Source: Orenia metallireducens
GTDB taxonomy: Bacteria; Bacillota; Halanaerobiia; Halobacteroidales; Halobacteroidaceae
Length of the DNA: 64,000 bases
Reading direction: 5' to 3'
Assembly: GCF_003001995.1 (NCBI RefSeq)
Contig: NZ_PVNB01000006.1
Location: forward strand, 124,001 to 188,000
This document shows, in pieces, positions 47,183 through 64,000 of the stretch (its first letter is position 1; every line of letters begins with the position of its first letter). Below the pieces are notes generated by a model. That model worked only from the letters and a program-made list of their open reading frames with translations, made no database searches and was not told the origin of the DNA. A program made the position numbers and the translations under genes.

Positions 47183-47195
47183 TTATTTATAGTAT
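47183..47195. repeat. Target-site duplication, right copy
   Basis: TTATTTATAGTAT, identical to 45962-45974. Here it codes (minus strand) for part of NTINN in the lipoprotein N-terminal piece. Confidence 0.8.
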
Positions 47196-47784
47196 TGTCT
47201 TCAGACTCCCAGTAATTAAAATAATAATTATCATATCTACCATTGGGTTCAGCATAAATTTGAACCTTTGTACCTGCCGGAATATTATCACCACTATAGT
47301 AAGTAATTCCTTCATTTTCTACATCACGTATAGTAATCTCACCAACTTCATTACCTAGAACAGAATGATTAGTACTCTCACAATTAACGATAAGTTGATA
47401 TTCTCCTGAATTGGATTCTTCATCTCCTGAACTATTATCAGAGTCATCATCTGAAGCATTCTCATCTTTTTCGAATATAGCCTTTACCTTAATAATCGGA
47501 GCCTGTACAGTAAGAGTTATAGTTTTATTTGTATCTGAAGAATCAGCAGTTTGCCACCCAGCAAACTTATAATTTTTAGCTGGAGTAGCAGTTAAAGTTA
47601 CCTTTTCACCTATTTTATAAGCATCTTTATCTGGTGATTTAGTTACTGTTCCAGCCCCCTCCTTTTCTATTTGAATTATTGACTTAGTAAATTCATCACT
47701 ATCTTCTGAACAACCTGTTAATAAAAATACTAAAGTTGTAATCAATATTAATGGAAATAACCTTTTACTTACATAAGTAATCAT
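47183..47784 (-). pseudogene. N-terminal part of IS-split repeat/LRR lipoprotein
   Basis: The open frame runs on into the IS to 47143. A lipoprotein signal peptide with lipobox LLTGC (Cys at about 25) is followed by an internalin-type beta repeat (AGTVTKSPDKDAYKIGEKVT, LTATPAKNYKFAGWQ), an acidic DDDSDNSSGDEE linker, and the first half of another repeat ending YWESEDNTINN. Joined to 44524-45974 with one copy of the 13-base duplication, the frame continues in phase: DNTINNNNKF then RNPLSITMDS. The repaired protein would have about 680 residues. ATG behind AGGAGG. A surface or periplasm-facing binding protein is likely. Confidence 0.85.
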
Positions 47785-47899: not shown

Positions 47900-47945
47900 A
47901 GATTTAAAAGAAATTTACAATTAATTGTAAATTTCTTTTAAATCT
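47900..47945 (-). terminator. Terminator of the type IV pilus operon
   Basis: A perfect 46-base palindrome centred on TTTACAATTAATTGTAAA, directly behind the pilQ stop codon, with T-rich arms. Confidence 0.88.
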
Positions 47946-49514
47946 CTATTTATCTACTTCTTCCACTGCTACAGGAAGAACCAACTCAGCATCCTCTTTA
48001 CTTTGAAAAACCTCTAATCCATTTATCCTCTTAAGATCATCTATAGAAACATCATATTTTTTTGCTATATTATTAATAGAATCACTAGCCTTAAGTCGGT
48101 AATAACGATTCTTAGGAACAGGAATTAATAATCCTTGACCAACTTCTAGCTTCTCTGGAGAATCTATATTATTATAAACCATAATTTTAGCAAAAGATAC
48201 CTTAAATAACTTTGCTATACTCCAGAAAGTATCTGCTTTCTTTACCTCATATCTAAATGGTTTAATATCTTCTCCCCATAATTCATTTGAATTATCCTTT
48301 TCAGTATCAATAATCTTAGGGGTAATGAAGATAACTAACTCCCTTTTTTCATTATCTACTCTTCGTTTACTAAATATCTTTCCTAAAATAGGCATATCAC
48401 CTAATAGTGGTACTTTAGATAACTTTTCAATCTGTTTATCGGAGATCAGTCCCCCAATTGCAATGGTTTTACCATCTTCAACCATTATATTTGTGGTAAC
48501 ATTCTTAGTATTAATTACTGGCATATTCTCAACATAACTATTTACTTCACTCACTTCTTGATTAATTGATAGGGTAACAGCACCATCATTAACCCTTGGA
48601 GTTAATTTTAAAATAGTACCTACAGTTCTAAACTCAACCTCTCTTGTTACTTCATCATCATCCTTTGTCTCTCTAATAACAGGAATCTCTTGCCCTATGT
48701 TAATTATAGCTTCTTTTCCATCAACAGTGGCTAGATGTGGATTAGCCAAAGTAACACTATCACCATTTTCATTTAAAGCAGCTAACACGCTTTGATACTC
48801 TATCCCTATATTTCCAATTTCAAATTGATTTGGTTTTTTAACTTGTTCATTATCATTATTATCCCAAATAATCGATGATCCATTTGAAGTAGTTCCTGTA
48901 GCAAAACTCCAATCTATCCCCATATTGTCTAACTTATCACGGGAAATATCCTCAATTCGAGCTTCTATTACTACTTGTTTATTTGGCTTATCTAACTCTT
49001 TAATTACCTTTTTTATTTGATCCATTTCATCTTCATAGGCCGTGACTATAATACTTTTGGTTCTATTATCAATCTTTAACGAATCCTCCCTAAGAAGTAT
49101 GCTTAAACTATTCTTTACTTCTTCAGGATTAGCGTTCTCCAATTTAAATACTTCAGTAACTTTCTTATCAAAGCTTTCCCTTAAACTCTCAGGGTTACCA
49201 ATCAATATTGTATTACCTACAACTCGATAACCTAGTCCATTGGTCATAGTTAATAACTCTATCGACTTTATAAAGGATATATCCTTAAGATTGACAGTAA
49301 CTCTTCCTTTTACCGTACTATCTGTAATTACATTCATCCCAGCTACATCTGCTAAAGCTCTAAAGGCATCCCTTAAATCAACTCCTTTAAAGCTTAAATT
49401 AATCTTATCCTCTGCCGCTAACGAAGAATAACTTAGAACAATCAAAGTAACTAATACTACAAAACCAATTATACTTATAGTTCTTCTCTTACTTTTAATT
49501 CTCTTCACCTCCAA
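47946..49514 (-). CDS. pilQ: Type IV pilus secretin PilQ with two C-terminal LysM domains
   Basis: 522 residues. Membrane or signal segment about 12-33. An STN-like domain (INLSFKGVDLRDAFRALADV) is followed by an N1/secretin_N domain (KVTEVFKLENANPEEVKNSL) and the secretin core (VEDGKTIAIGGLISDKQIEK, VPLLGDMPILGKIFSKR, RELVIFITPKII). Residues about 427-470 and 474-516 are two LysM domains (YEVKKADTFWSIAKLFKVSF; YRLKASDSINNIAKKYDVSI). It forms the outer-membrane pore for the pilus. LysM at the C-terminus is unusual; PilQ proteins more often bind peptidoglycan through N-terminal AMIN domains. The start is unclear: the frame opens at TTG 49514 next to GGAGG, and an in-frame ATT 8 bases behind it is possible. 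Confidence 0.92.
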   Translation of the reverse strand: MEVKRIKSKRRTISIIGFVVLVTLIVLSYSSLAAEDKINLSFKGVDLRDAFRALADVAGMNVITDSTVKGRVTVNLKDISFIKSIELLTMTNGLGYRVVGNTILIGNPESLRESFDKKVTEVFKLENANPEEVKNSLSILLREDSLKIDNRTKSIIVTAYEDEMDQIKKVIKELDKPNKQVVIEARIEDISRDKLDNMGIDWSFATGTTSNGSSIIWDNNDNEQVKKPNQFEIGNIGIEYQSVLAALNENGDSVTLANPHLATVDGKEAIINIGQEIPVIRETKDDDEVTREVEFRTVGTILKLTPRVNDGAVTLSINQEVSEVNSYVENMPVINTKNVTTNIMVEDGKTIAIGGLISDKQIEKLSKVPLLGDMPILGKIFSKRRVDNEKRELVIFITPKIIDTEKDNSNELWGEDIKPFRYEVKKADTFWSIAKLFKVSFAKIMVYNNIDSPEKLEVGQGLLIPVPKNRYYRLKASDSINNIAKKYDVSIDDLKRINGLEVFQSKEDAELVLPVAVEEVDK

Positions 49515-50061
49515 GAGTATAAATATAATTCCTTCCTTGACTCTTCATAACTACCTTATCATCTTTGATCTCTTTGAGAGTTAAACCTGCAAACTCTTCA
49601 CCAACTTTTATAATCTGAACCAAAGAATTCTTTTTTCCAAATTTGATAATAGCAACTTTGCTAAATTGATTGTTTAATATACCTAAAAGCTCAATAGTTC
49701 TTATCTCTATTTTATTTTCTATTTTATCATCTTCTACCTTCTCTTTTTCAATCTTCTTCAATAAGATCTTAAAAGGATTTTTAGCTACTATTTTTTCATT
49801 ATCTATAGTTTCTTCTTTGTTAGTTTCTTTAGCTTCTTCTTCTAGAGCTATATCCTCTTTAGTCGATAGATCAGCTACTTTAACCATATTATTTAAATCT
49901 TGTTCAAAGTTAATTAGTTCTTCACCAATTTTATAAAAACAGAGTATTCTATAAGTCAATATACTCATACTTGATAAAAATAAAATTAATACTAGAAGTA
50001 AAATTAATCTTTTATCTTCTAAAATATTTACTGCTTTAAAATCCTGTATAGCTAGCTTCAC
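49495..50061 (-). CDS. pilP: PilP/GspC-like pilus assembly protein
   Basis: 188 residues. A short cytoplasmic part, one membrane helix (LILLLVLILFLSSMSILTYR), a Lys/Glu-rich linker, then NPFKILL and a small beta domain (TIELLGILNNQFSKVAIIKF, KVGEEFAGLTLKEIKDDKVV). The NPF plus HR-type beta domain matches PilP/GspC, which connects the inner-membrane PilMNO complex to the secretin. It overlaps pilQ by 20 bases. Identity is supported by gene order more than by sequence. It has a membrane helix where classical PilP is a lipoprotein. Confidence 0.78.
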   Translation of the reverse strand: MKLAIQDFKAVNILEDKRLILLLVLILFLSSMSILTYRILCFYKIGEELINFEQDLNNMVKVADLSTKEDIALEEEAKETNKEETIDNEKIVAKNPFKILLKKIEKEKVEDDKIENKIEIRTIELLGILNNQFSKVAIIKFGKKNSLVQIIKVGEEFAGLTLKEIKDDKVVMKSQGRNYIYTLGGEEN

Positions 50062-50627
50062 TACTCTACCCCCTTCCTATCTAGGGCATAACTCACTATG
50101 ATTATATTAGCCTGTAAATAATCCCCTTCCCTTATCATCTCAATACTCAAATCCCTTATCCTAGTCAAATAATTTAATTGTTTTATTTGACCTATATAAG
50201 CAACAATCTCACTATAACTTCCTTGCAACCTTACAATTGCCGGGAATTTGATATAAAGCTCTTCCTGCTCAGTCTTTTGTGGTCGAATACCTAACACTTT
50301 AACCCCTGTATCTAAAGCTATTTGATTTAAATCTATTAGAAATTTGTTGTTTTCATCTTGATCTAAAAATTGATTCTCTCTTTCATTTAATTCTTTTAAG
50401 AGTCTGTTATATTCATTCTCTACAATATTTTTCTTAGCTAACTTGGCATTCATAGCTTTTAATGATATTATGGATTTTTTTAACCTTGCTTTATTACTGT
50501 TCAACTTCTCCTGATATGACTGATATAGTCCATATAATGAATAAAGACCGAATAACACTCCTACTATTAAAAGAAGAGTCAACAACTTCTTCTCCCGGGG
50601 TTGTAATTTATCTAACAATGACCTCAC
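50061..50627 (-). CDS. pilO: Type IV pilus inner-membrane protein PilO
   Basis: 188 residues. A short tail, one membrane helix (LLTLLLIVGVLFGLYSLYGL), a coiled coil (about 35-85) and a ferredoxin-like domain (FPAIVRLQGSYSEIVAYIGQ). It forms a periplasmic heterodimer with PilN. Overlap with neighbours of 1-4 bases indicates translational coupling. Confidence 0.88.
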   Translation of the reverse strand: MRSLLDKLQPREKKLLTLLLIVGVLFGLYSLYGLYQSYQEKLNSNKARLKKSIISLKAMNAKLAKKNIVENEYNRLLKELNERENQFLDQDENNKFLIDLNQIALDTGVKVLGIRPQKTEQEELYIKFPAIVRLQGSYSEIVAYIGQIKQLNYLTRIRDLSIEMIREGDYLQANIIIVSYALDRKGVE

Positions 50628-51214
50628 CCCTTATCCTTTGATTGATTGTCATCTAAACTCTTATCTATTGTACCATCAATCTCATAATAAAACCCTTCTG
50701 CCTCTTCATAATCTGGAGAATAATGTATACTTCTTTGATCAAATATCCTCAAATCAATATTTGTAAATGTTTTTGATTTTTGGGAATTTTTTATTATATC
50801 TTTTAATTTACTTCCAGATAAAATATAGCCTTCAATCTTAAATACTCTATCTTCTGTGATATCTAATCTAGTTAACCAAGTATTATTAGGAATTACATTA
50901 CTTAATTCCTTTAATACTATCACCCATTCCAGATCTTGATTAAATGCTTGATCTAACTTAGTTAATCTCTCTTCTATTTGAGCATTCTTAGCTTCTATTT
51001 TATTTAAATTCTTTAGTTGATCATTGATATCTATTATCTTTCCTTCCACAACAGCCATCTTCTTTTCAAGAGTCTTTTTTTCTACTACAATCCCTAAAGC
51101 AAAAGATGATCCAAATACTATTACAGTCAAACTAGTAATTATGATAATTAATACCATCATTCTCTCACTAAAAGTCTTTGGTTTTGGATAATCTGGAGGC
51201 AATAAATTTATCAC
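50624..51214 (-). CDS. pilN: Type IV pilus inner-membrane protein PilN
   Basis: 196 residues. The N-terminal motif MINLLPPDYPKPK is the PilM-binding peptide. One membrane helix (MMVLIIIITSLTVIVFGSSF), a coiled coil, and a beta/alpha domain with VIPNNTWLTRLDITEDRVFK follow. It links cytoplasmic PilM to PilO. Four-base overlaps with pilM and pilO. Confidence 0.93.
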   Translation of the reverse strand: MINLLPPDYPKPKTFSERMMVLIIIITSLTVIVFGSSFALGIVVEKKTLEKKMAVVEGKIIDINDQLKNLNKIEAKNAQIEERLTKLDQAFNQDLEWVIVLKELSNVIPNNTWLTRLDITEDRVFKIEGYILSGSKLKDIIKNSQKSKTFTNIDLRIFDQRSIHYSPDYEEAEGFYYEIDGTIDKSLDDNQSKDKG

Positions 51215-52260
51215 TTTTCATCCTCCTCCCTGAGAGCTAGTCCAATACTCACACCCAATAATTGCTCTACTTCTGATAGATATTTATCACTGACCATCTC
51301 TGAGCTGAGATAACCTGATAAATTCAGCTTGTCCACACTGATTTCAAACTCCTTGCTTAAATGATCAGCAAAACCAATTAAATTGGCTCCACCACCTGTA
51401 ATAATTAACTTATCAATATCAAAGCCTCTATATTGTACCTGAAAATAATCCAAAGACCTATAAATAGCTGTGGTCAAATTTCTGACAATTAAATTAATAT
51501 CCTCCTGCTCAAATAAATTAGTACTTATTTTATAAGTTTCAGCCTCTTCAAAAGAAGATTCCTGCATTTCAGCAATATCATCAGTTATATTCTCTCCACC
51601 CAATCCTATATTTCTAGTAAATAACAACTTGCCCTTATCCAAAATTGAGATATCAGTAGTATTTGTCCCAATATCTATCACCCCAATAGTTCCAGCTAAC
51701 CCCAATCTGCCAATAGTTCTAGCTATAGCTACAGGTTCTATCTCGATTGCTACTGGCTCTAGCTCCAATAATTCAAACAGATTTAGATACTTATTAATTA
51801 ATTTTTTATTTACTGCAATTAATAGAACCTGATATTTACCATCTTTAGCTTGACTTAAAACCTCATACTCTAAAACTACATCTTCAACTCTAATCGGTAG
51901 TTTTTCACTTGCCTCCCACTTAATTGCTGCAGCCAATTCCTCTATAGGCATCACAGGAACATCAATCATCCTGCTAATCACCTGCTCCCCACTGATTGCT
52001 GCAACAACCTTTTTAGCTTGAAATTCTTTCTCTTTTAAAAGCTGTCTTAATAACCCTTCTAACTTAATTATGTCATTTAAATCTCCATTTTTGACAGCAC
52101 CTTCTGGAACAGGGCTAATAGCCAAATTATTTAAGACTATCCCCTGCTTATTAGTGCTGACCTCAGTCAATTTAAGCGATTCATCACCAATATCTAAGCC
52201 AATTATATTGTTGTTATTAAATAATCCGATTTTTTCCTTTAGAGTAGTTAATATTCCCAC
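51211..52260 (-). CDS. pilM: Type IV pilus assembly protein PilM
   Basis: 349 residues, actin-like fold. NIIGLDIGDESLKLTEVS at the N-terminus, VISRMIDVPVMPIEELAAAI, TIGVIDIGTNTTDISILDKG, and LIITGGGANLIGFADHLSKE. It is a cytoplasmic ring protein that binds the PilN N-terminus. GTG/ATG-type start behind a GAGGTGAAATAG region. It is the first of the four-gene pilMNOP block after the minor pilins. Confidence 0.94.
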   Translation of the reverse strand: MGILTTLKEKIGLFNNNNIIGLDIGDESLKLTEVSTNKQGIVLNNLAISPVPEGAVKNGDLNDIIKLEGLLRQLLKEKEFQAKKVVAAISGEQVISRMIDVPVMPIEELAAAIKWEASEKLPIRVEDVVLEYEVLSQAKDGKYQVLLIAVNKKLINKYLNLFELLELEPVAIEIEPVAIARTIGRLGLAGTIGVIDIGTNTTDISILDKGKLLFTRNIGLGGENITDDIAEMQESSFEEAETYKISTNLFEQEDINLIVRNLTTAIYRSLDYFQVQYRGFDIDKLIITGGGANLIGFADHLSKEFEISVDKLNLSGYLSSEMVSDKYLSEVEQLLGVSIGLALREEDEK

Positions 52261-52278: not shown

Positions 52279-53949
52279 TCATTTATTAAATGTTCTACTA
52301 AACTTTTCAACTTCATTTCCATCTTTGTCTTTAAGTAAATACTGTCCATCTTTTGTATAAGTAAGTTCACTACAATTAACATTGTCACAATATAATACCA
52401 ATTGATTTAAATTCTCTCCTTTTTCAACCTTAGTTACCCATCCTTCATCTAAAATAAAATTATCTGTACTTGGTAATTGATCTAAATCTAATGGTTCATC
52501 GAAGGTTAAAGTAATTTTATCTATATTCCTGTTTACTTGCTTAACACCTGGTTCAGCTTCACCTATCTTTATTTCATAAAAATCAGCACTATAACTTCCT
52601 CCCCAGCTACGTAAAGCAATATATCTTCCAGGTAACTTGCCATCATAGGGATCACCATCACCAAAATGTCCTCCAGAATATTCCCAATCAAAGAAATACT
52701 CCCAGTCTAATTGTTTTCCAGTAAATTTAGTACCATTCAAATAAACTTTATCAAAATCTCCAAACCACATCTCTTTAGACTCATTTCCAGCTTGATCGAT
52801 TATCTTTACTCGTATAATCAAAGTCTTATTAGTATAAGAATTACCATCATCAATATTTAGTTGAGTTTGAACCTTGATCTTGGTAGTATATCTTTTATTC
52901 CAATCTGATAAATTAAAACCAGTTTCATCATTTCTAATATCAGCTGGAGTATAAACTGCCATATATCCATTGGGAGCATTTCTATCTACGTCTGCACCAA
53001 CATATTCTATTCCTGTATCGTGGTGATATCCATTATGGATTTTTCTTAGCATAAAACCTTTAGCACCAGGATCAAATTGGAACAAATAACCATAATCTTC
53101 TTTATCATCTTCATCCCATCCTCCCCTTAATAAAACCCCAAAACCATTTCCTTGATTTATCTTTGCATCTACACTGATCGAAAAACTATCAATATCACCC
53201 TTTTTATCTTTAAAATAAGTATCATCTAGTTTAGTAAATAGTAATCCCCCTCCAGTTGTACTTGTTCCAGTTATATTAAAAGAAAGTTCTCCACCATTAA
53301 CAGAAGGATCATCAAAGGTAGAGTCTCCAGCAGATATTACTGTATCATCATTAACACTACTTACCCAATCATACCAAAATTTATTAAATAGATACTTATA
53401 AACATCATCTACAAAACTATTAGGGGAAACATATGCAATTGCAATTCCTTCTTTATCACCTAAAATACTATCTGTTAAATTACTAGGAGCAACTGCTGAA
53501 CTAAATTTTGATTTTAATTTATCTATCCCTAATTGAAAGTTTACATATTTATCTTCAGCATCTTCTTTACTAAATAATAAATTATATTTATACTTGTTAT
53601 TACTACTAACTACTGTTCTAGGAATACTCACTCCTACTGAATTTTGAGGATAATGAATAACTTGACTCTGATCTGAGCTAAGAAGAAGATAACTATAATT
53701 TGCATGATCTAACTTAGAAATATCATTTAAAACTTTAACTTTAGTAGCATAACGTAATTGTTCGGTAATATAATGGCTAAGAAAATTAATATCTTGCTGA
53801 AAGGTTATTTTTTGCTGACTATCATTAAAAATTTGATAACTATTACTAAGTAACATATATGCCCCACTTATAACTGCACTAGAAATAACAATTGCAATCA
53901 TAATTTCCACTAAAGTAAAAGCTCTATTATCTCTTATTAGCATCAACAA
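52279..53949 (-). CDS. Large minor pilin (PilW-like N-terminus) with carbohydrate-binding-like domain
   Basis: 556 residues, two to three times the usual minor-pilin size. The prepilin leader and helix RDNRAFTLVEIMIAIVISSA lack the common Gly before the cleaved Phe (Ala here) but keep Glu5. Residues about 50-190 look like a pilin globular part. From about 230, a beta-rich region (DSFSISVDAKINQGNGFGVL, DYGYLFQFDPGAKGFMLRKI, YIALRSWGGSYSADFYEIKI) resembles concanavalin-like sugar-binding folds. The end (DKITLTFDEPLDLDQLPSTD) resembles an Ig-like SbsA/Big domain. It is probably displayed at the pilus tip. Domain calls are by pattern only. Confidence 0.78.
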   Translation of the reverse strand: MLMLIRDNRAFTLVEIMIAIVISSAVISGAYMLLSNSYQIFNDSQQKITFQQDINFLSHYITEQLRYATKVKVLNDISKLDHANYSYLLLSSDQSQVIHYPQNSVGVSIPRTVVSSNNKYKYNLLFSKEDAEDKYVNFQLGIDKLKSKFSSAVAPSNLTDSILGDKEGIAIAYVSPNSFVDDVYKYLFNKFWYDWVSSVNDDTVISAGDSTFDDPSVNGGELSFNITGTSTTGGGLLFTKLDDTYFKDKKGDIDSFSISVDAKINQGNGFGVLLRGGWDEDDKEDYGYLFQFDPGAKGFMLRKIHNGYHHDTGIEYVGADVDRNAPNGYMAVYTPADIRNDETGFNLSDWNKRYTTKIKVQTQLNIDDGNSYTNKTLIIRVKIIDQAGNESKEMWFGDFDKVYLNGTKFTGKQLDWEYFFDWEYSGGHFGDGDPYDGKLPGRYIALRSWGGSYSADFYEIKIGEAEPGVKQVNRNIDKITLTFDEPLDLDQLPSTDNFILDEGWVTKVEKGENLNQLVLYCDNVNCSELTYTKDGQYLLKDKDGNEVEKFSRTFNK

Positions 53950-53961
53950 TATTCTTCCCCC

Positions 53962-55596
53962 CTACTTTCTATAAGTTATATCTTGAAATGAAATTCCTGT
54001 TGAAATCTCTTCAGAATCTTTAGGCGTTACATCTTTCCATTGCCAGACTCCATCTTCAAAATGATAAGCCAATATAATTCCATTATCATCTTTAGTTGTT
54101 CCTACTATAAGTACCCTATCACCATCACTATTCAAACTGATAGCATTAAACTCCTTAATATTAGTAAACCCATCATCTTGAGGAGTATAACTTCCTTTTT
54201 GTTTAATAAACTCATCTTCTTGTTTTTTATAAACTAGCATTACTGAATTTGAATTTCCTTCATCATTGCCCACTATAAAATATAAATTATTCTTAACTTC
54301 TTCTATGTCTTTTAATATTGAGCCTTCATCAACTTCATCGACTGGATTTCCTAGACTAAATTTATCTTCATCATCATTTAAAACATATTTATACTCTGGT
54401 ATCTGACCTTCTCCTACTGCTATAAATTTATTTTCATCTTGATTCCAGATTAAATTGTAAAGGGGCTTAGTCAGTGCGAAAGTTTGGAAATTCCAAATAA
54501 TAGAATCCCATTTTGAATTCTTATAGGCTATTCCTTTTTCCCCCACTATCACAAAGCCTTTATAATCATCACTATCTTTATAAATGATATTCTTAAAATT
54601 TTCTGTAACTAAAGTACCTTTATCATCAAATACTTTAGCTCTAGTCCAATCACTATATCTCTTTGAGATATCATTATATCTTGATTCTAAAATCACTCCA
54701 TTATCTCCAACTGCTACAAATCTATCTCTCCCCCAAGCTACTCCATTTAAATTAATAGCCTCTACACCACTTGAATCAGCAATTTGATCTTTATCCCAAT
54801 TAACACCATCTGCAGAAGAGTAAATAACGCCTCCTTCTCCTACTGTTACAAACTTCTGATAATCTGTCTCGCCACCCCAAGTTACGGCTTTTAAATTAAC
54901 AATCGATTCTAACGAATGATTATACCACTTATCCCCAGCATATGATGTTAATATCGTTCCCTGATCTCCTACTGCTACCAGATTAACCGATTTAATATGA
55001 TAATCAAGTAAGATAGCAGACTCCTTCCCTTCCATTTTGGCTTCTAATTTATACCATCCTGCAGATACACCATTATCAATATCAAGATATGCTATTTTAT
55101 CTTGGTTATTACTATCCATTAATATAGAAGTATTTAAGATACTATCATTACTATTTTCGTCTTCTTTTAACTTCACAGTTATCTTTGTTTTATCAATTAT
55201 ATTCTGAGTTTTAATCTTAACGTCAATATTATCTGGTGCATTACCATATATATAAGACTCAGGGGTTGGGATTACAGAAATAAAAGCTGGTACTGAAGGT
55301 AAAAAGGTTGTTAATCCATGAGAGCTAACTGTTCCACCTTTGACCTCAATTGGCTTTTGACTTCCAAATTTAAACTCTAAGTTATGAGCTATATCAGCTT
55401 CATTATTATAAATTCTTTCTTCTAGCTTTTTTTGTCCCTCATTCATCTCCTGCATTGTAGCCTGATTCTTAAAGAGAAAGGATATACTATCAGTAAAGAA
55501 GTTCATAAATCCAATCACTATAATAGATAAAACTGTCATTGCCACTAAGACTTCTAACAACGAAAAACCAGCTTGACCGTTTAATAATCTAATCAC
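53962..55596 (-). CDS. Minor pilin (PilV-like N-terminus) fused to a beta-propeller-like domain
   Basis: 544 residues. Prepilin signal NGQAG with cleavage before FSLLEVLVAMTVLSIIVIGF, with Glu5 present. Residues about 95-200 are a beta domain. From about 205 to 540 there are six or seven repeats of a sequence like LVAVGDQGTILTS..., FVTVGEGGVIYSSADGVNW, FVAVGDNGVILES, FVIVGEKGIAYKNSKW, and FIAVGEG. This G-x-I-xx-S-xDG-xxW pattern is that of BNR/sortilin-type beta-propellers. I infer a pilus-tip adhesin or a subunit-binding platform. GTG start behind GAGGTGAG. It lies 12 bases before the next minor pilin gene. Confidence 0.82.
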   Translation of the reverse strand: MIRLLNGQAGFSLLEVLVAMTVLSIIVIGFMNFFTDSISFLFKNQATMQEMNEGQKKLEERIYNNEADIAHNLEFKFGSQKPIEVKGGTVSSHGLTTFLPSVPAFISVIPTPESYIYGNAPDNIDVKIKTQNIIDKTKITVKLKEDENSNDSILNTSILMDSNNQDKIAYLDIDNGVSAGWYKLEAKMEGKESAILLDYHIKSVNLVAVGDQGTILTSYAGDKWYNHSLESIVNLKAVTWGGETDYQKFVTVGEGGVIYSSADGVNWDKDQIADSSGVEAINLNGVAWGRDRFVAVGDNGVILESRYNDISKRYSDWTRAKVFDDKGTLVTENFKNIIYKDSDDYKGFVIVGEKGIAYKNSKWDSIIWNFQTFALTKPLYNLIWNQDENKFIAVGEGQIPEYKYVLNDDEDKFSLGNPVDEVDEGSILKDIEEVKNNLYFIVGNDEGNSNSVMLVYKKQEDEFIKQKGSYTPQDDGFTNIKEFNAISLNSDGDRVLIVGTTKDDNGIILAYHFEDGVWQWKDVTPKDSEEISTGISFQDITYRK

Positions 55597-55607
55597 TTAC
55601 TCACCTC

Positions 55608-57029
55608 TCAATTATCACCCATCATTGTTGAACCCCAATAAGCTTTACTATAATAAAAATTCCTATCAAAATCATCATAAAAAGAATTAATAGATTTTGC
55701 CATTAATTTTATTTTATAATTACTAATATTGATATCATTAGCAATAATTGCACCAGTGAAGATATTTTTCTGCTCCTCCTTGTGTCCCCAATTATATTTT
55801 ACCTCATTCTTCTTAGCAGTTAAAGTAACCTTACTATTAGGAGCATAAATAACCCTGGCAACAATTTTAGATTTATCAGTATTAAAGTTGCCATTAATAA
55901 TCACATTTTTCTTACTAATAATATGACCAATAATATTGGCTGTACCTTTTAAATTAAGTGGAGCTGTTTCACTATAAAAACTTCCATAGATTATACTACC
56001 TTTGGGATTATTTGTACTATTATTGGCTTTAAACTCAGTAGATCCCTTGCAATAAATAATAAGATTCTTCCACTTGTTAAATTTATTTATTATAGCATCA
56101 GATTTAAGATTAATTTCCTCATCAATATATATTTCAGTTAATACTTGATTACCAATTTCTATATTACTTCCATTCTTCATTTCAAGTCTACCAATTCTAA
56201 CTTTATCTGCTTTAATCTTTAAGGTTCCATTATTATTAATAGTAATATTTTTATAATAACCATTTTCATTTATAGTTTTAGTATCTTTATTTCCTATATT
56301 TAATTCTCTGTTCTTATTCTCATCTCTTATGTTAGGGAAATCTGGGAAATCAGGCATAGTATAACTTCTTATTCTTTCTAACTTAGTCGGTTTTACTCTA
56401 AACTTATTTTTAATAGCTTCTATATTATCAGCTGTTGTATTAACTCCTACTTTAATCTCACCATTTATTGTAGTGCCATTATACAAATTAAGATTAGGTG
56501 CTTTCGCATCCTGCTCATTTCCACCAATAAGAACTATATCACCCTCTACATTGGAATTACTCAATACGACCTTATCTATTCCCACTAAATTAACAGTATC
56601 ATTATTACCTGCACCTTCTCCTAAATACATCTTGACCTTGATAGTTTTTTCAAACTTTCCTACCTTTCCAGTAGAGGTAATCAACAGACCTTCTTCATCA
56701 TCATTACTAATTAATTTAACACTGACTTTATATTGCCCTGCTGATTTATTTTCAGAGTCAAAATCTGTCCAGTCAGTACTTTTACTGTCTTCTCCAAAAC
56801 GCTCTTTAATTTCTTTAGAAGGATTATCCTTAATCCAGTCAACCATTGATGCTGCAGCTGAACGAGCTATATAATAGGCTGCCTTTTGATCTTTATACAG
56901 ATGAGTTGTTTTAATATGAGATATTATTATTGATGACATAACCATAGTAAACATTCCTACTATCCCCATAATTATAACTACTATCGCCAGACTTGAACCT
57001 TCTTCAAGATTTAATGATTTTTTCAACAT
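55608..57029 (-). CDS. pilX: PilX-like pilus protein with beta-helix-like C-terminal domain
   Basis: About 473 residues. The N-terminus NLEEGSSLAIVVIIMGIVGM and following helix, then DQKAAYYIARSAAASMVDWI, match PilX N-terminal domains, which lack a standard FTLIE site. From about 150 the protein is a long series of short strands (VVLSNSNVEGDIVLIGG, LYNGTTINGEIKVG, IGRLEMKNGSNIEIGNQVLT, LNLKGTANIIGHIISKKNVI), like right-handed beta-helix or bactofilin folds. The ATG at 57029 behind AAGGAGGTGAGC is preferred over the frame start at 57053. Confidence 0.78.
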   Translation of the reverse strand: MLKKSLNLEEGSSLAIVVIIMGIVGMFTMVMSSIIISHIKTTHLYKDQKAAYYIARSAAASMVDWIKDNPSKEIKERFGEDSKSTDWTDFDSENKSAGQYKVSVKLISNDDEEGLLITSTGKVGKFEKTIKVKMYLGEGAGNNDTVNLVGIDKVVLSNSNVEGDIVLIGGNEQDAKAPNLNLYNGTTINGEIKVGVNTTADNIEAIKNKFRVKPTKLERIRSYTMPDFPDFPNIRDENKNRELNIGNKDTKTINENGYYKNITINNNGTLKIKADKVRIGRLEMKNGSNIEIGNQVLTEIYIDEEINLKSDAIINKFNKWKNLIIYCKGSTEFKANNSTNNPKGSIIYGSFYSETAPLNLKGTANIIGHIISKKNVIINGNFNTDKSKIVARVIYAPNSKVTLTAKKNEVKYNWGHKEEQKNIFTGAIIANDINISNYKIKLMAKSINSFYDDFDRNFYYSKAYWGSTMMGDN

Positions 57030-57072
57030 AAAGAAGCTCACCTCCTTCTTCAACTGCTTAACCTTGTAATAT

Positions 57073-57822
57073 TTACATAATAAAATTCAAATACCAATTA
57101 ATAATCTCATCTCCCCATAATACCATCACTAAAGCTCCCATTGAAATAAAAGGACCAAAAGGAATTCTATCCTTTCTACCCTTAACCCCAGTTAACATTA
57201 AGCCTCCACCAACAACAGAACCTATAAATGCTCCAAGAAAGATAGCAGCTACACCATACTTAGCACCTAAAAAAGCACCTACCATCGCTATTAATTTAAC
57301 ATCTCCCATACCCATTCCACCTTTGCTGATAATCGCTATTAAAAGTAAGATAGCTGCTGGGATTAAGATACCTAATAATACAGAGTAGATAGATTGATTT
57401 AGAAAAAAGATACTCAAAATAAAACCTATTATAATTCCAAAATAATTAATCTGATTAGGGATAATCAGATACTTGAAATCAATCACACTAACTGTTATTA
57501 ATAGAGAAGATAGTATTAAATAACTCAAAAATTGTATATTTAAATTATATTTCCAGTATAACAGCAAAAAAATAATTCCTGTTAGCAATTCCACTAATGG
57601 ATACTGCCAAGAAATCTTCTCTTTACAATAACGACACTTAGCTCCACTGAACAGAAAACTGACAACAGGAACTAAATCTCGAATCTTTAAATTAGTCTGA
57701 CAATTCGGGCAATGGGAAGCCGGAAAAACAATCGACTCTCCTTCAGGCACACGATAAATTACTACATTCAGGAAACTGCCTATAATTAAACCCAAGATAA
57801 ATATTATTACTGATGTTAACAT
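57073..57822 (-). CDS. pilD: Prepilin peptidase/N-methyltransferase PilD
   Basis: 249 residues with about eight membrane helices. The cytoplasmic zinc module has four cysteines (ASHCPNCQTNL, SGAKCRYCKEKI). The two aspartate protease sites are ISVIDFKYLIIPN and GGMGMGDVKLIAMVGAFLG (GxGD). It cleaves prepilin leaders and methylates the new N-terminal Phe. The ATG at 57822 behind AAAAGGTG replaces the GTG at 57831. It serves pilA and the minor pilins in the same locus. Confidence 0.96.
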   Translation of the reverse strand: MLTSVIIFILGLIIGSFLNVVIYRVPEGESIVFPASHCPNCQTNLKIRDLVPVVSFLFSGAKCRYCKEKISWQYPLVELLTGIIFLLLYWKYNLNIQFLSYLILSSLLITVSVIDFKYLIIPNQINYFGIIIGFILSIFFLNQSIYSVLLGILIPAAILLLIAIISKGGMGMGDVKLIAMVGAFLGAKYGVAAIFLGAFIGSVVGGGLMLTGVKGRKDRIPFGPFISMGALVMVLWGDEIINWYLNFIM

Positions 57823-57861
57823 AGATTTCACCTTTTCTATAATTTTAATTTAATACAATTA

Positions 57862-59238
57862 TCAGTTATCTTGAAGAAAATTACAACAAGAAATGCTAAG
57901 CCCCATTAGCACCCAAAAAACTGGTGCCACCGATACTACACTTATATTGAAAGTAGCTTGAATAAGATACCCAAGCACAGCTATCAATAAAGCCAAGTGA
58001 TATTTATCTTTAACTGACACAGACTTAAGATTAAACTTTATAACTCTAAATAAAAACCATAAATATGCTATTAGAGCAGGAATTCCAACGGTTATCCCTA
58101 ATTGTAAGTACTCACAATGAGCTTTATCTAAAATTATATTCTTATTCCCAGTAAAATTTTGATATATTTCTTGAGGATACACTTTATGAAAAGTATCAAG
58201 ACCTTGCCCAAACCAAGGATGTTTGAATAACAATGGCACTGAAGTCTTGTATATTAGCATTCTATAAGAGCCAGCACTGTTGACCTCTTGTTCATTACCC
58301 CATAACAATGCTTTACCATCAAGAAAAATACTAATAAATCTATTTAATAGATAACCTTGATTGATGTAATTAAAGAATAAAGTAATAATTATGAAGACCA
58401 ACATTATCAATACAAATCTTTTCTTCTTATTGGCTAAATCATTTTTAATAAAATAATAACCAATTGGTATTAAGCATAGCATTGCTAGATAAGTACTTCT
58501 AGTTCCTGTAGCTAGCATAAAAGTATAAAAAATAGTTGTAATAGTTCCTAAAAGAAATAATTTTTTATTATTTCTTTCTACATAATAATATAATATAAAG
58601 GATAAAGGCAATAACATACTTACATAGCTACCAGCAAAATCGGGATTTCCTAATGTAGAGAAAGCCCTATGATTCCAATGTTCTCTATATGGATCTCTTG
58701 GAATAAAATCAAAACCAAAATATTGTAATAGCCCATAAATAGAAATTATAACTCCAGAAATAATCAAATACTTCACTATTTGTTTTAAATAAACTTTATC
58801 TTTCACTAAATTCATAGCTACTAAAAACAAGACTAAATAACTTGCTACAACTAGTAGTCCTTCACACCTCATATTTTTACCATAGATAGCTACTACCTTA
58901 TATGGTGATAAGATAGTCGAAACTACTATAAAACCAAAAAATAGGGCTAAAGGTGTATAGAATGACTTCCAACTTAATCTAACCTCTTCTTTTTTAATCA
59001 TAAAATATAAGACAACTAACATACATAGAGTTATTAAGATTAAGGCATCAACCTTAGGTTTATAGATAGTATCTTTAATAGAATTAGAAATTATATTCCC
59101 ATATTTATCTCTAATCAACAATTGTCCTTGATTATTTTGCGAATAAGGAAGATAAATCAAAGGAACCACTGCAACTGCACAAGTCAATAGTAAAATATTT
59201 ATTCTCACTAATAATTTTTCACAACTTTTCAAAAGCAC
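57862..59238 (-). CDS. O-antigen ligase/Wzy-family membrane protein, possible pilin glycosyltransferase
   Basis: 458 residues with 10-12 membrane helices. A large loop contains RAFSTLGNPDFAGSYVSMLL, TGTRSTYLAMLCLIPIGYYF and the conserved HPWFGQGLDTFHKVYPQ ... KAHCEYLQLGITVGIPALIA, the Wzy_C signature. The family includes WaaL ligases, Wzy polymerases and the PglL/PilO/TfpW oligosaccharyltransferases. A place between pilA and pilD in a pilus operon, with no sugar-synthesis genes near, favours O-glycosylation of pilin; this is inference. GTG start with GGAGTGGAG nearby. Confidence 0.82.
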   Translation of the reverse strand: MLLKSCEKLLVRINILLLTCAVAVVPLIYLPYSQNNQGQLLIRDKYGNIISNSIKDTIYKPKVDALILITLCMLVVLYFMIKKEEVRLSWKSFYTPLALFFGFIVVSTILSPYKVVAIYGKNMRCEGLLVVASYLVLFLVAMNLVKDKVYLKQIVKYLIISGVIISIYGLLQYFGFDFIPRDPYREHWNHRAFSTLGNPDFAGSYVSMLLPLSFILYYYVERNNKKLFLLGTITTIFYTFMLATGTRSTYLAMLCLIPIGYYFIKNDLANKKKRFVLIMLVFIIITLFFNYINQGYLLNRFISIFLDGKALLWGNEQEVNSAGSYRMLIYKTSVPLLFKHPWFGQGLDTFHKVYPQEIYQNFTGNKNIILDKAHCEYLQLGITVGIPALIAYLWFLFRVIKFNLKSVSVKDKYHLALLIAVLGYLIQATFNISVVSVAPVFWVLMGLSISCCNFLQDN

Positions 59239-59332: not shown

Positions 59333-59743
59333 TTATGGAGTAGTAACTAACCCATTTTCAGGTGTAAGAGTAACTGTTGTTCCACTAGCAGTATCAAAAT
59401 CTAATGTATATGTTTGAGGATCAGTACCAGTTACAGAATATCCATAATCTGTACTACTCTTTGTTGCTGCCAATTTACCAGATAAGTCACTACCTATATA
59501 ATCACTACTTGTAAGCTGAGCTAAAGTAGGATATGCCTGATGTTCAGCATAATACATCTCTAAAGCAGATTGGACAGCTTTAAAATCAGCTTGCACCTGA
59601 GCAACCTTAGCCTTTCCAGTAACTCCACTCATCTTTGGTACAGCAATTGCAGCCAAAACACCAATTACCGCAATTACAATCATCAATTCAATTAAAGTAA
59701 AACCTTCCTCAGCTTTCATTCTTCTTCTCAATTTGTTCATCAT
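59333..59743 (-). CDS. pilA: Major type IV pilin PilA
   Basis: About 136 residues. A basic leader MNKLRRRMKAEEG is cleaved before FTLIELMIVIAVIGVLAAIA, the classical N-methyl-Phe helix with Glu5. The mature protein has a short helix (KVAQVQADFKAVQSALEMYY) and a Thr/Ser-rich beta part (TGTDPQTYTLDFDTASGTTV), and no cysteine pair. The Ser/Thr content would suit O-glycosylation. The frame opens at GTG 59752; the ATG at 59743 is given, a second ATG follows directly. It has its own promoter and a 5' leader of about 130 bases. Confidence 0.95.
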   Translation of the reverse strand: MMNKLRRRMKAEEGFTLIELMIVIAVIGVLAAIAVPKMSGVTGKAKVAQVQADFKAVQSALEMYYAEHQAYPTLAQLTSSDYIGSDLSGKLAATKSSTDYGYSVTGTDPQTYTLDFDTASGTTVTLTPENGLVTTP

Positions 59744-59889
59744 TCTTTCCACTTCCTCTCATTTTTTAATCTTGCAAACTAAGTATAAATAATAATACCG
59801 CTAAATACTCAAGACTTCCCTCCTATCACCTCCTTTCAAGTAATAATTAGTGCAGAAACAAAAACTTGTTACTTACATTATACCATCTA
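59744..59889 (-). promoter_or_regulatory. pilA promoter and leader
   Basis: On the minus strand TGGTATAAT (about 59878-59886) is an extended -10 box just after the pilC stop; no good -35 is seen. The leader contains GAAAGGAGGTGAT (59825-59837), a full complement to the 16S 3' end, but no start codon of a real gene follows it. A second GGAGGG is followed by a three-codon TTG frame. The real pilA start is about 80 bases further on. Confidence 0.6.
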
Positions 59890-61089
59890 TTAAATTCCAT
59901 TTATCATATCAAACATCGGTAACATAACAGACATCATTATTCCACCTACAACCAACCCTAGAATTACTATCAATAAAGGCTCAATCAGCGAGACCAGCCC
60001 TTCTGTTTTAGCTTTAACCTCTTGCTCATAAAAACCGGCTACCCGCAGTAGCATCTCATCTAAACGACCAGTCTCTTCACCCACATTGATCATCTGTAAG
60101 AGCATAGGTGGAAATATCTCTTGTTGCCTTAAAGGCAAGACCATACTCTCTCCTTCAGTAATTGCTTGTTTAGCTTGGCTAATATTATCTGCTACTACCT
60201 TATTACTCATCACAGCTTCTACAATCTCTAGACTTTCAATGATAGATACCCCACTACTGATCAGTACACTGAGAGTTTTAGTAAAACGAGCAGCTGCCAA
60301 CTTAGTAATCAAATCTCCTACTATTGGAAGTTTTAAGAGTATTCTGTCAATATGCCGCCTACCTTGGCCAGTTTTACGGTAATAATATACTCCTAAAATT
60401 AACATTGCAAGCATGACTAATATAAGCCACCAATATGAACTAACAAAAGCACTTAAAGCAAGGACAAATTTAGTAATAGTAGGTAACTCTACATTCATAT
60501 CATTAAACATATCTACAAAGGTCGGCAAGACACCTACAATCAAAAAGATAACTGAGCAGAGAGATACGAAACTAATTACTACTGGATAAGCCAAAGCAGA
60601 GAAGATTTTCTGCCTAAGTTCATTCTCACTCTCTAAATGGTCTGCCATCTCTTCTAAAGTCTCATCAAGCAATCCACCCGCTTCTCCAGCAGCTACCATA
60701 CTGATAAACAAGTCAGGGAATATCTTCTTCTTCTCTTCTAAGGCTGCTGATAAAGGCATTCCACCTTCAACATTATCTTTAATAGAAGTGATAGCCTCTC
60801 GTAGTTTTAAATTATCAGTTTGAGTCGATAAAATCTCTAGAGCTCTGACCAATGATATTCCAGCATTGATCATAGTTGCAAACTGGCGAGAAAATACAAC
60901 TAAATCTTTCAATCCAACCCTTGAGAAAAGTTTAAAATTAATATTTCGATCTTTATACTCTTCAATACTGACAATATAATAGCCTTTATCTCTCAATCTT
61001 TTAACTGCCATCTGCTCATTATCAGCTTCTAGCGAACCATCTAATCGATTGCCTTCAGCGCTTCTGGCTTGATAAATAAATTCTGCCAT
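59890..61089 (-). CDS. pilC: Type IV pilus inner-membrane platform protein PilC
   Basis: 399 residues. Two T2SF domains (FSRQFATMINAGISLVRALE near 70; AARFTKTLSVLISSGVSIIE near 272) and three membrane segments, the last at the C-terminus (LLIVILGLVVGGIMMSVMLP). It is the platform on which PilB and PilT act. The frame opens at TTG 61107; the second of two ATGs at 61089, behind AAAGGGG, gives the family N-terminus MAEFIYQARS. Confidence 0.96.
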   Translation of the reverse strand: MAEFIYQARSAEGNRLDGSLEADNEQMAVKRLRDKGYYIVSIEEYKDRNINFKLFSRVGLKDLVVFSRQFATMINAGISLVRALEILSTQTDNLKLREAITSIKDNVEGGMPLSAALEEKKKIFPDLFISMVAAGEAGGLLDETLEEMADHLESENELRQKIFSALAYPVVISFVSLCSVIFLIVGVLPTFVDMFNDMNVELPTITKFVLALSAFVSSYWWLILVMLAMLILGVYYYRKTGQGRRHIDRILLKLPIVGDLITKLAAARFTKTLSVLISSGVSIIESLEIVEAVMSNKVVADNISQAKQAITEGESMVLPLRQQEIFPPMLLQMINVGEETGRLDEMLLRVAGFYEQEVKAKTEGLVSLIEPLLIVILGLVVGGIMMSVMLPMFDMINGI

Positions 61090-61192
61090 CATTATCCCCT
61101 TTCCCAAAATTAGAGCAATATCCTATATGGTTATTCCTATTAAATACAATATATATATAATTTAACATCCAAGGTTGTAACTCCTGCAAAAT

Positions 61193-62251
61193 TTAAATTA
61201 AATTTTTAATATAATTGATGTTATTTGCTCTATTCATGGTATCATCCCAAGTTATCTTGTTCTCTTGATAAAGTTTCTTCAATGAATAATCCATAGTATG
61301 CATTCCTGAACTTCTATTAGTCTGCATTATTGACTCGATTTGATGGACTTTACCTTCTCTGATTAAGTTTTTAACTGCATTATTTACAATTAATAGCTCA
61401 GTAGCTAAAGCTCTATCTAAACCATCAAAAGTAGGTATCAACTGTTGAGATAATACCCCTTGTAACGTCAAACCTAACTGAGTTCTAATCTGTTGTTGCT
61501 GATGAGGTGGAAAGACATTAATAACCCGCTCAATACTTTCAGCTGCACCATTGGTATGTAATGTACCTAAAACCAAATGACCTGTTTCGGCTGCTGTAAT
61601 AGCTGTAGAGATAGTATCTAAATCCCTCATCTCACCAACTAAGATAATATCAGGGTCTTGGCGTAATGCTGCACGCAATCCATTAGCAAAACTTAGTGTG
61701 TCAGAACCTACTTCCCTTTGATTAATAATAGATTCATTATGGCGATGAACATATTCAATTGGGTCTTCCAAAGTAATAATATGCCTATCAACTTTATGAT
61801 TAATGTAATCTATCATGGAAGCTAAAGTAGTTGACTTACCACTTCCAGTAGGACCTGTAACCAAAAATAATCCTCTCGGTCGTAAAGATATCTCTTTTAA
61901 CTCTTGGGGCAAACCCAACTCTTTTAAAGGGGGAATCTTATGAGGAATAATTCTTAAAACAGCAGCAGCACTACCTCTTTGCTGAAAAGCATTAACCCTA
62001 AACCGGTGGTCAAAACCATCACAATCTAAATGGAAAGCAAAATCAACCTCTCCTCTTTCTTCAAACACTTCTCTGTTAGTCTCCTCCATCATTTCCCCAA
62101 TCAATCCCATAATTTTATCTGGAGTTATCATCACATCTTCAATTGCTTGTAATTTACTATTAATTCTAGCCATAGGCTTAATTCCAACGGTTAGATGAAT
62201 ATCTGAAGCCCCTAGTTTAATCCCCTTTTTTAATAACTCCTCTAATTTCAT
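61193..62251 (-). CDS. pilT: Type IV pilus retraction ATPase PilT
   Basis: 352 residues. N-terminal PAS-like domain with ASDIHLTVGIKPMARINSKL, Walker A GPTGSGKST near 133, Asp box TLEDPIEYVH, Walker B DPDIILVGEMRDLDTISTAI, His box AETGHLVLGTLHT, and the PilT-specific AIRNLIREG-like motif (VKNLIREGKVHQIESIMQTN). It depolymerises pili and so drives twitching. 85 bases follow to pilC's upstream region; 14 bases separate it from pilB. Confidence 0.96.
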   Translation of the reverse strand: MKLEELLKKGIKLGASDIHLTVGIKPMARINSKLQAIEDVMITPDKIMGLIGEMMEETNREVFEERGEVDFAFHLDCDGFDHRFRVNAFQQRGSAAAVLRIIPHKIPPLKELGLPQELKEISLRPRGLFLVTGPTGSGKSTTLASMIDYINHKVDRHIITLEDPIEYVHRHNESIINQREVGSDTLSFANGLRAALRQDPDIILVGEMRDLDTISTAITAAETGHLVLGTLHTNGAAESIERVINVFPPHQQQQIRTQLGLTLQGVLSQQLIPTFDGLDRALATELLIVNNAVKNLIREGKVHQIESIMQTNRSSGMHTMDYSLKKLYQENKITWDDTMNRANNINYIKNLI

Positions 62252-62265
62252 AAATTACACCTTCC

Positions 62266-63981
62266 TTACTCAATAAATTCCGGTTTCCCTAGTTGTACTT
62301 TTGTCACTCTCATTACTTCCTCTAAAGTTGTAATTCCTTGGTTGACCTTATGTAAACCAGAAGCTTCTAAAGTAATCATACCATCTACTATTGCTCTTTC
62401 AGCAATATCCTCTGTTGAGGCACCCTGTACTATCATCCTTTTAAGTTGATTATCTAATTCTAAAATTTCATGAATAGCCGCTCGACCTCGATAGCCTGTC
62501 TCATTACACTCTCTACATCCTTTGCCATGGTAAAAGTCAATTCTATCATTTCCTTTGCCTAAATACTTTTCTAAATCCTTGTCCACTAATTTTTCTCTAG
62601 ATTTGACTCTACAATTAGGACAGATTCTTCTTACAAGTCGTTGAGCTACAACTCCCACAACTGAAGATGATACCAAAAATGGCTCTACTCCCATATCTAC
62701 TAACCTTGTTAAAGCACCAGCAGCCTCATTAGTATGGAGGGTACTTAAGACTAAATGTCCAGTCAAAGCAGCGTTAATGGCAATCTCTGCTGTCTCCTTA
62801 TCACGAATCTCACCTATTAATACTATATCCGGATCTTGACGCAAGATAGAGCGCAAAGCACTAGCAAAAGTCAGTCCAGCCTTATTATTTGTCTGTACTT
62901 GATTAATACCTTCTAGCCTATACTCAACTGGATTTTCAACTGTAATAATATTTTCATGTTCACTATCAAGGGAACTTAATGCAGAATAAAGTGTGGTTGT
63001 TTTTCCACTCCCCGTAGGACCTGTAATCAATATCATTCCATGAGGATGATTAATCATCTCTTTGAAAACCTCTAAATGTTCCGCTACAAACCCTAAGTCA
63101 TCTAATTTTAACATTAAATTACTTTTATCTAAAATTCTCATAACTACTTTTTCCCCTTTAACAGTAGGTAAAGTAGAAACACGCAAATCTATCTCTTTTC
63201 CTTGAATAGTCATTTGAATTCTACCATCTTGAGGAACTCGCCTTTCAGCTATATCTAAATCAGACATAATCTTTATTCTAGAGACTAGGGCAGGCAAAGC
63301 GCTTTTAGGAACATTATTCATAGTATTTTGTAAGATCCCATCTATTCTATACCTTATCTGTATATCTTCATCTAAAGGTTCTATATGAATATCACTAGCC
63401 CGTAACTTAACACCATCAGCAATAATATTATTTACTAACTTGACAACTGGTGCATCATCTATTAATTCTCTTAATGCATCTTCTTCCATCTCATCTTCAG
63501 AACCCTGCCATTCAGAATTAATACCATCTAAGAATTCACTGATTATATCACTATTTCCAAAATATTTTTCTAAAGAATGCTCAATTTCAGTTCTAGTTGC
63601 AATAACAGGAATAATCTCACAATTAGTCTTAATTTTAATGTCATCAATAGCCATTACATCTAAAGGATCTTCCATAGCTACAGTTAAGATATTTCCTCTC
63701 TTCTTAATTGGAATAGCATGGTGTCTTTGAGCTAACTCCGGAGGTATACTTTTAATTACATTTGAATCGATGATAAATTTCTCTAAATCTATCTGTGGTA
63801 TGCCCAGCTGAAACTCCAATGCTTCTACTAAATCCTGTTCAGCAACAAAATCTAATTCTTGTAAAACAACTCCTAGCCGCTTGTCAGTTCCTTTTTGAAC
63901 CCCCAAAGCTTCATATAACTGTTCTTCTGTAATGAATTCTGCCTCAACCAAAATATCCCCTAGCCTTTTTTTCTTGATCAT
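62266..63981 (-). CDS. pilB: Type IV pilus extension ATPase PilB
   Basis: 571 residues. N-terminal MshEN domain (RLGDILVEAEFITEEQLYEA), known in some members to bind cyclic di-GMP. N2 domain with ASDIHIEPLDEDIQIRYRID, Walker A GPTGSGKTTT near 327, Asp box TVENPVEYRLEG, Walker B DPDIVLIGEIRDKETAEIAI, His box ALTGHLVLSTLHT, and a tetracysteine zinc site (RICPNCRVK ... GCRECNETG). It powers pilus assembly. The ATG at 63981 behind GGAGGGGG is preferred to the frame start near the window end. First gene of the locus visible. Confidence 0.96.
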   Translation of the reverse strand: MIKKKRLGDILVEAEFITEEQLYEALGVQKGTDKRLGVVLQELDFVAEQDLVEALEFQLGIPQIDLEKFIIDSNVIKSIPPELAQRHHAIPIKKRGNILTVAMEDPLDVMAIDDIKIKTNCEIIPVIATRTEIEHSLEKYFGNSDIISEFLDGINSEWQGSEDEMEEDALRELIDDAPVVKLVNNIIADGVKLRASDIHIEPLDEDIQIRYRIDGILQNTMNNVPKSALPALVSRIKIMSDLDIAERRVPQDGRIQMTIQGKEIDLRVSTLPTVKGEKVVMRILDKSNLMLKLDDLGFVAEHLEVFKEMINHPHGMILITGPTGSGKTTTLYSALSSLDSEHENIITVENPVEYRLEGINQVQTNNKAGLTFASALRSILRQDPDIVLIGEIRDKETAEIAINAALTGHLVLSTLHTNEAAGALTRLVDMGVEPFLVSSSVVGVVAQRLVRRICPNCRVKSREKLVDKDLEKYLGKGNDRIDFYHGKGCRECNETGYRGRAAIHEILELDNQLKRMIVQGASTEDIAERAIVDGMITLEASGLHKVNQGITTLEEVMRVTKVQLGKPEFIE

Positions 63982-64000
63982 CTTACCCCCTCCAATCATG

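Follow-up and report, generated by a model that had tools for sequence, protein, structure and literature searches.

The analyzed window, a stretch of 64,000 nt from Orenia metallireducens, contains a complete type IVa pilus operon with pilT and a secretin gene. The operon starts with pilB, pilT, pilC, and pilA, continues with a Wzy-like gene, pilD, and the genes for X-, V-, and W-like prepilins, and ends with pilM, pilN, pilO, pilP, and pilQ. The features of the locus are listed below, with the basis of each assignment in brackets.

62266..63999, minus strand: pilB, extension ATPase (sequence, operon order)
61193..62251, minus strand: pilT, retraction ATPase (sequence, operon order)
59890..61107, minus strand: pilC, platform protein (sequence, operon order)
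59333..59752, minus strand: major pilin (N_methyl, GspG/ComGC/PilA-like matches)
57862..59238, minus strand: Wzy_C/O-antigen ligase-like membrane protein (PF04932)
57073..57831, minus strand: pilD, prepilin peptidase (PF06750, PF01478)
55608..57053, minus strand: PilX/GspK-like large prepilin, 481 aa, with a DUF7305-like C-terminal part (DUF7305 E 5.5e-5, below the cut-off)
53962..55596, minus strand: PilV-like modular prepilin, 544 aa (ORF; N_methyl PF07963; partial TIGR02523 PilV match below the cut-off)
55288..55596, minus strand: its pilin module, residues 1-103 (PF07963; bare PilV orthologues stop at the equivalent FLP/FIP)
54991..55287, minus strand: its Ig-like beta-sandwich, about residues 104-202 (AF2 model; conserved with Clostridia relatives)
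53965..54990, minus strand: its seven-bladed Ycf48-like beta-propeller, about residues 203-544 (blade HMM, profile match to PDB Ycf48, AF2, Foldseek)
52279..53949, minus strand: PilW-like prepilin, 556 aa (N_methyl; conserved with two relatives)
51211..52260, minus strand: pilM (TIGR01175 above the cut-off)
49495..51214, minus strand: pilN, pilO, and pilP (positions, sizes, operon order)
47946..49514, minus strand: pilQ, secretin with two LysM repeats (PF00263 E 3.9e-47, LysM)
47900..47945, minus strand (listed on the plus strand; the stem is symmetrical): near-perfect 20-pair hairpin directly after pilQ

The hairpin is a possible terminator of the operon. For the Wzy_C/O-antigen ligase-like gene between the major pilin gene and pilD, a role in pilin glycosylation, as an oligosaccharyltransferase, is possible. 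To our knowledge, two C-terminal LysM domains are unusual for PilQ; C-terminal LysM-like stretches were also recognized by eye in the secretins of three related loci (L016, L017, and L018). The region downstream of pilQ (44524-47784) encodes two repeat proteins, one with InlB repeats and one with leucine-rich repeats, and between their genes, on the opposite strand, lies an IS30-type transposase gene (46072-47130), the insertion of which may have split one gene into these two parts. Besides this pilus, the genome of the window has at least four other loci for type IV filaments (L081-L084, on contigs C7, C2, C37, and C19), and the locus on contig C7 is T2SS-like, with a full G-H-I-J-K set.

The gene of the PilV-like prepilin starts with GTG, and its 544 codons form one frame without interruption. 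The class III signal sequence GQAG/FSLLEVLVAM has a glutamate at position +5 and matched PF07963 (N_methyl) with an E-value of 1.3e-6 and 28.2 bits, above the curated cut-off of 21.2, which confirms the prepilin N-terminus with a glycine before FSLLEVLVAM that had been proposed from the sequence alone. The pilin module comprises the leader ending in G10, F+1, E+5, the alpha1 helix, and a small beta domain that ends with LTTFLP. The best curated pilin match was the PilV model TIGR02523, which covered the first 45 residues only and scored 28.2 bits, below its cut-off of 52.2, and therefore the label "PilV-like" is used for the 544-aa prepilin. Between the pilin module and the propeller an Ig-like domain was found, which the original prediction did not contain; it has seven strands (residues 9-97 of an AF2 model that was run on residues 105-544), with pLDDT values mostly of 50-74.

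The size of the protein is unusual, and this is the sole point in favor of an artefact of gene prediction or of decay, in which a pilin gene would continue by read-through into a propeller gene that is in fact separate. The single unbroken frame and the recurrence of the three parts in nine genomes that represent several families leave this explanation practically no chance. The statement of the original prediction that minor pilins normally have 150-200 residues names a norm that overlooks published modular pilins (PMC8179133, PMC9934059) and a pilin with a seven-bladed propeller (PMC12206443).

The gene lies 11 bp after the PilX-like gene and 12 bp before the gene for the PilW-like prepilin, a second oversized prepilin whose size the original prediction did not mention. 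DUF7305 passed the cut-off in a PilX-like relative from locus L016, and the DUF7305-like domain may represent a third tip module. The same relative also showed a weak match to a "putative ice-binding-like adhesive domain". The PilW-like protein ends with an Ig-like domain, and its large middle domain shows strong conservation in two relatives, with which the overall identity is 36-40%. The middle domain yielded no profile match in the PDB and matched no family; judged by eye, it looks like a concanavalin-type lectin or a LamG-type fold. The PilW-like protein would be a second modular pilin adjoining the first, as is the case for PilB and PilC of Streptococcus sanguinis.

The gene stands in the X-V-W order inside a pilus operon, as expected for a PilV/GspI subunit. 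PilV, PilX, and PilW are homologous to GspI, GspK, and GspJ, tip pseudopilins have been proposed to touch substrates (PMC7541494), and the genome has a separate T2SS-like cluster. The propeller protein might therefore serve a pseudopilus-like secretion process, in which it would select or push exported substrates instead of binding to surfaces. However, the operon has pilT and the pilM-Q set typical of type IVa pili, not GspC or an exoprotein set, and the T2SS-like locus exists apart from it, on contig C7. A secretion function is thus regarded as very unlikely, and a minor-pilin role in a type IVa pilus that can retract is preferred.

The repeats downstream of the Ig-like domain were analyzed with a blade HMM that was built from proteins of other species only, leaving out the protein of the window. 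It recognized seven repeats with 100.6 bits for the whole protein, whereas the best of 1000 shuffles of the region reached 12.7 bits. The repeats start at about residues 203, 234, 282, 332, 383, 439, and 482, and the anchor motif is found at residues 206, 249, 293, 348, 391, 439, and 495, with a spacing of 43-56 residues. Repeats 1-5 and 7 were each significant alone; repeat 6 scored only -2.7 bits, but its position fits the spacing to be expected. The original prediction of "six or seven" repeats was thus right about their propeller type, and the count can be narrowed to seven. The domain also shows circular closure: blade 1 is entered at its second strand, and the first-strand motif ISFQDITYRK stands at the C-terminus, where it forms a closing strand at residues 534-544. 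The same type of ending is present in most relatives. Several related free propellers have seven or fourteen repeats.

A profile made from 22 domains of this kind matched the crystal structures of Ycf48 in the PDB (2xbg, 5oj5) with an E-value of 1.8e-12. Prediction of residues 105-544 with AF2 and 21 relatives resulted in a model with short strands throughout (pLDDT 71, pTM 0.72), although the hand-picking of seven-repeat proteins for the alignment could favor a propeller. The first blades have values of about 90, and the confidence falls in blades 5-7, with block means of 41-62 in places. All Foldseek matches recognizable by name were beta-propellers; a 7-bladed designer protein was among the first, Ycf48 reached a TMt of up to 0.66, and the "viral" library gave generic propeller-like matches only. 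The domain was found only with profiles: phmmer with the single protein did not yield a match in the PDB, no propeller model, including RCC1, matched in a Pfam scan of the protein, and single-sequence AF2 of the full protein gave a pLDDT of only 38.6. PF14870 (Ycf48/PSII_BNR) did not match the protein of the window; the Halonatronum relative scored 46.3 with this model (gathering score 27). Ycf48, described as seven-bladed in an entry of the reference list of PMC8546353, has the same repeat type, but it is a photosystem II assembly factor without a pilin part. Taken together, PF07963, the blade HMM, the Ycf48 profile match, AF2, and Foldseek agree on a prepilin fused to a beta-propeller, as originally predicted; the proposed structure prediction was in favor of a propeller of 6-8 blades, and seven repeats plus a C-terminal closing strand make it seven-bladed, with less certainty for blades 5-7.

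The full three-part protein is encoded in the genome of the window and in eight further genomes. Three of the latter have a secretin (G002 from the same genus, G004, which is Halonatronum saccharophilum, and G028) and belong to the same class. In the other five, which represent three other families, a secretin was not detected (G111, G149, G214, G293, and G403), and these bacteria are presumably monoderm. The fusion thus occurs in other diderm Firmicutes, where a search for it had been proposed, but it is not limited to secretin-bearing genomes. In all carriers, genes for a PilX-like and a PilW-like protein flank the gene of the PilV-linked fusion.

A pattern search that used this protein alone found no relative in the named genomes. 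Searches with family alignments returned bare PilV-like proteins of 110-118 aa, which match positions 6-111 of the family model over their whole length, showing that the pilin module of the fusion is complete. Most of them stop at the FLP/FIP motif at which the fused proteins run on into the Ig-like domain. As bare PilV proteins exist in relatives, even within one genus (G462, compared with the fused protein of G293), the start of the graft can be located. The extra module is not specific for pili, and Ycf48-like propellers are present in many unrelated proteins; both this and the complete pilin module are characteristic of modular pilins. Matches to about residues 193-314 in three genomes (G015, G022, and G042) were rejected as pilins. 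They turned out to be DppC-like ABC-transporter permeases of about 510-610 aa (L045, L025, and L038, respectively) with a Ycf48-like propeller inserted after the first transmembrane helix, which is an unusual architecture in its own right.

In three genomes (Clostridium sp. Cult3, locus L080; G018; and G044), related repeats are carried by the PilX-like subunit, with two to four clear repeats each. In Clostridium sp. Cult3 and G044, the PilV and PilW next to this subunit have the usual size. The propeller thus recurs on neighboring subunits of one complex. An earlier tree, in which the fused proteins clustered, was discarded because columns of the graft had been included. In the tree of the PilV modules, a single clade of fused proteins was not rejected (p-AU 0.24), the modules being too short to decide. 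Comparison of the sequences, with the shared Ig-like spacer, favors one origin for the PilV-linked form.

Two variants were observed among the relatives. In the fused pilin of H. saccharophilum (L018:8117-10078), blades 3 and 4 are separated by an inserted domain of about 145 residues (324-470), which looks LamG-like by eye. In the corresponding operon of a genome of the same genus as the window (G001, contig C6; L188:7834-9929), a deletion joins pilX (about residue 420) out of frame to pilW (about residue 270). The whole propeller pilin has been lost, and the remaining pilus genes look intact, so that this is a natural knock-out of the tip genes; either the propeller pilin is dispensable, or the G001 pilus is decaying.

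The absence of pilY1 from the locus, which had been noted from the sequence, was followed up with PF05567, the model of the PilY1 propeller. It did not match the protein, the window, the genome of the window, or 58 other genomes of the class, and it was also negative for those fused genomes that belong to other classes; proteobacterial positive controls were matched (G063, E 9.6e-34; G064, E 3.1e-9), although a very divergent PilY1 could be missed by this search. The protein itself is not a PilY1. PilY1 is not a pilin but has a type I signal peptide (PMC7541494) and a PF05567 propeller, whereas the protein of the window has a prepilin N-terminus and lacks both. The likeness lies in the presentation of a propeller together with the minor-pilin complex, and PilY1 has been proposed to be both a tip adhesin and a primer.

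Alternatively, the propeller might serve as a cap with a structural or regulatory task and not as an adhesin; it might block the addition of subunits, cork retraction, or dock the tip in the secretin or the PilO ring, as has been suggested for the conserved propeller domain of PilY1. The lack of a detectable PilY1 also speaks for this reading. In Myxococcus xanthus, PilY1 is built into the machine by means of its conserved propeller domain, and the complex acts as primer and cork (PMC7541494). However, docking in a secretin cannot be general, since five fused genomes have no detectable secretin, and a bare PilV suffices in relatives, which argues against a cap that is essential for assembly. 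We therefore regard a mere cap as improbable, and the ligand-binding minor pilin remains the preferred explanation.

Several known systems resemble the protein in part. In S. sanguinis, a vWA module (PilB) and a lectin (PilC) are grafted onto pilins (PMC8179133, PMC9934059). These have a class III signal peptide, a small pilin module, and a bulky C-terminal functional module, and the two modular pilins of one pilus are proposed to cap its tip. The protein of the window differs from them by a seven-bladed propeller and an Ig-like spacer on a PilV/GspI-like carrier. In the accessible part of Raynaud et al. (PMC8179133), a propeller is mentioned for PilC/PilY1 only. Another minor pilin, PilX2 of Nanosynbacter lyticus TM7x, a member of the Patescibacteria, also has a seven-bladed propeller at its C-terminus. 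PilX2 is a proposed adhesin required for normal host binding, and after its deletion binding fell to about half (4.6% of host cells instead of 10.6%; PMC12206443). It has RCC1 repeats, a PilX carrier, and no predicted PilD signal, in contrast to the Ycf48-like repeats, the PilV-like carrier, and the canonical prepilin signal found here.

Modular pilins and one pilin with a seven-bladed propeller, the RCC1-type PilX2 of TM7x, are thus already known. Within the open-access literature, and as far as our searches show, the Ycf48-like propeller on a PilV-like carrier is new, as are its spread over Bacillota with and without a secretin and the alternative attachment to PilX; some of the proteins may, however, be among the 264 modular pilin architectures of PMC8179133.

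The prepilin motif, the complete pilin module, the propeller, the operon, the conserved slot, and the lack of a detectable PilY1 were all computed here, and they point to a modular minor pilin in a type IVa pilus that can retract. The propeller of this pilin, probably at the tip, would present a ligand-binding face and work like PilY1 without being one. We assign this reading a probability of about 70%. PilD would cleave the prepilin after Gly10, and the PilV/GspI-like module of about 103 residues would pack, by way of its N-terminal helix, into the minor-pilin complex of PilX, PilV, and PilW (K-I-J), which primes and caps the filament. The Ig-like spacer would hold the propeller away from the filament. 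Extension of the pilus would display the propeller at or beside the tip, where it may act as an adhesin and bind a surface polymer, another cell, or a protein with one of its faces; retraction by PilT would then pull. With a propeller covalently attached to a pilin doing the job of the PilY1 propeller, PilY1 would not be needed and would be functionally replaced. In M. xanthus, PilX, PilW, and FimU hold PilY1, and PilV was located beneath the other members of the tip complex (PMC7541494); therefore, the propeller could also be attached to the shaft, directly below the tip. As all three tip pilins are enlarged (481, 544, and 556 aa), the tip probably bears several modules, and the oversized PilX-like and PilW-like partners probably show their own modules on it, in a division of labor. 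The bacteria with fused pilins are, we assume, free-living halophiles or fermenters, and thus, a mineral, a polymer, or a cell surface would be a likelier target than a host receptor.

Adhesion by type IV pili is poorly understood outside of the Proteobacteria, and the propeller is a hallmark of PilY1. The fused family ties a propeller covalently to a pilin in genomes without a detectable PilY1. It is conceivable, at somewhat less than even odds, that Bacillota have a PilY1-free pilus tip, in which a Ycf48-like propeller on a minor pilin, moved between PilV-like and PilX-like subunits and present with or without a secretin, would functionally replace PilY1 and, with the enlarged partners of the PilX and PilW type, form a tip of several modules. 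Natural comparisons are at hand in the bare PilV of close relatives, the propeller on PilX elsewhere, and the deletion in the same genus, and thus, the function of the tip propeller can be tested directly, both in bacteria that have an outer membrane and in those that lack one.
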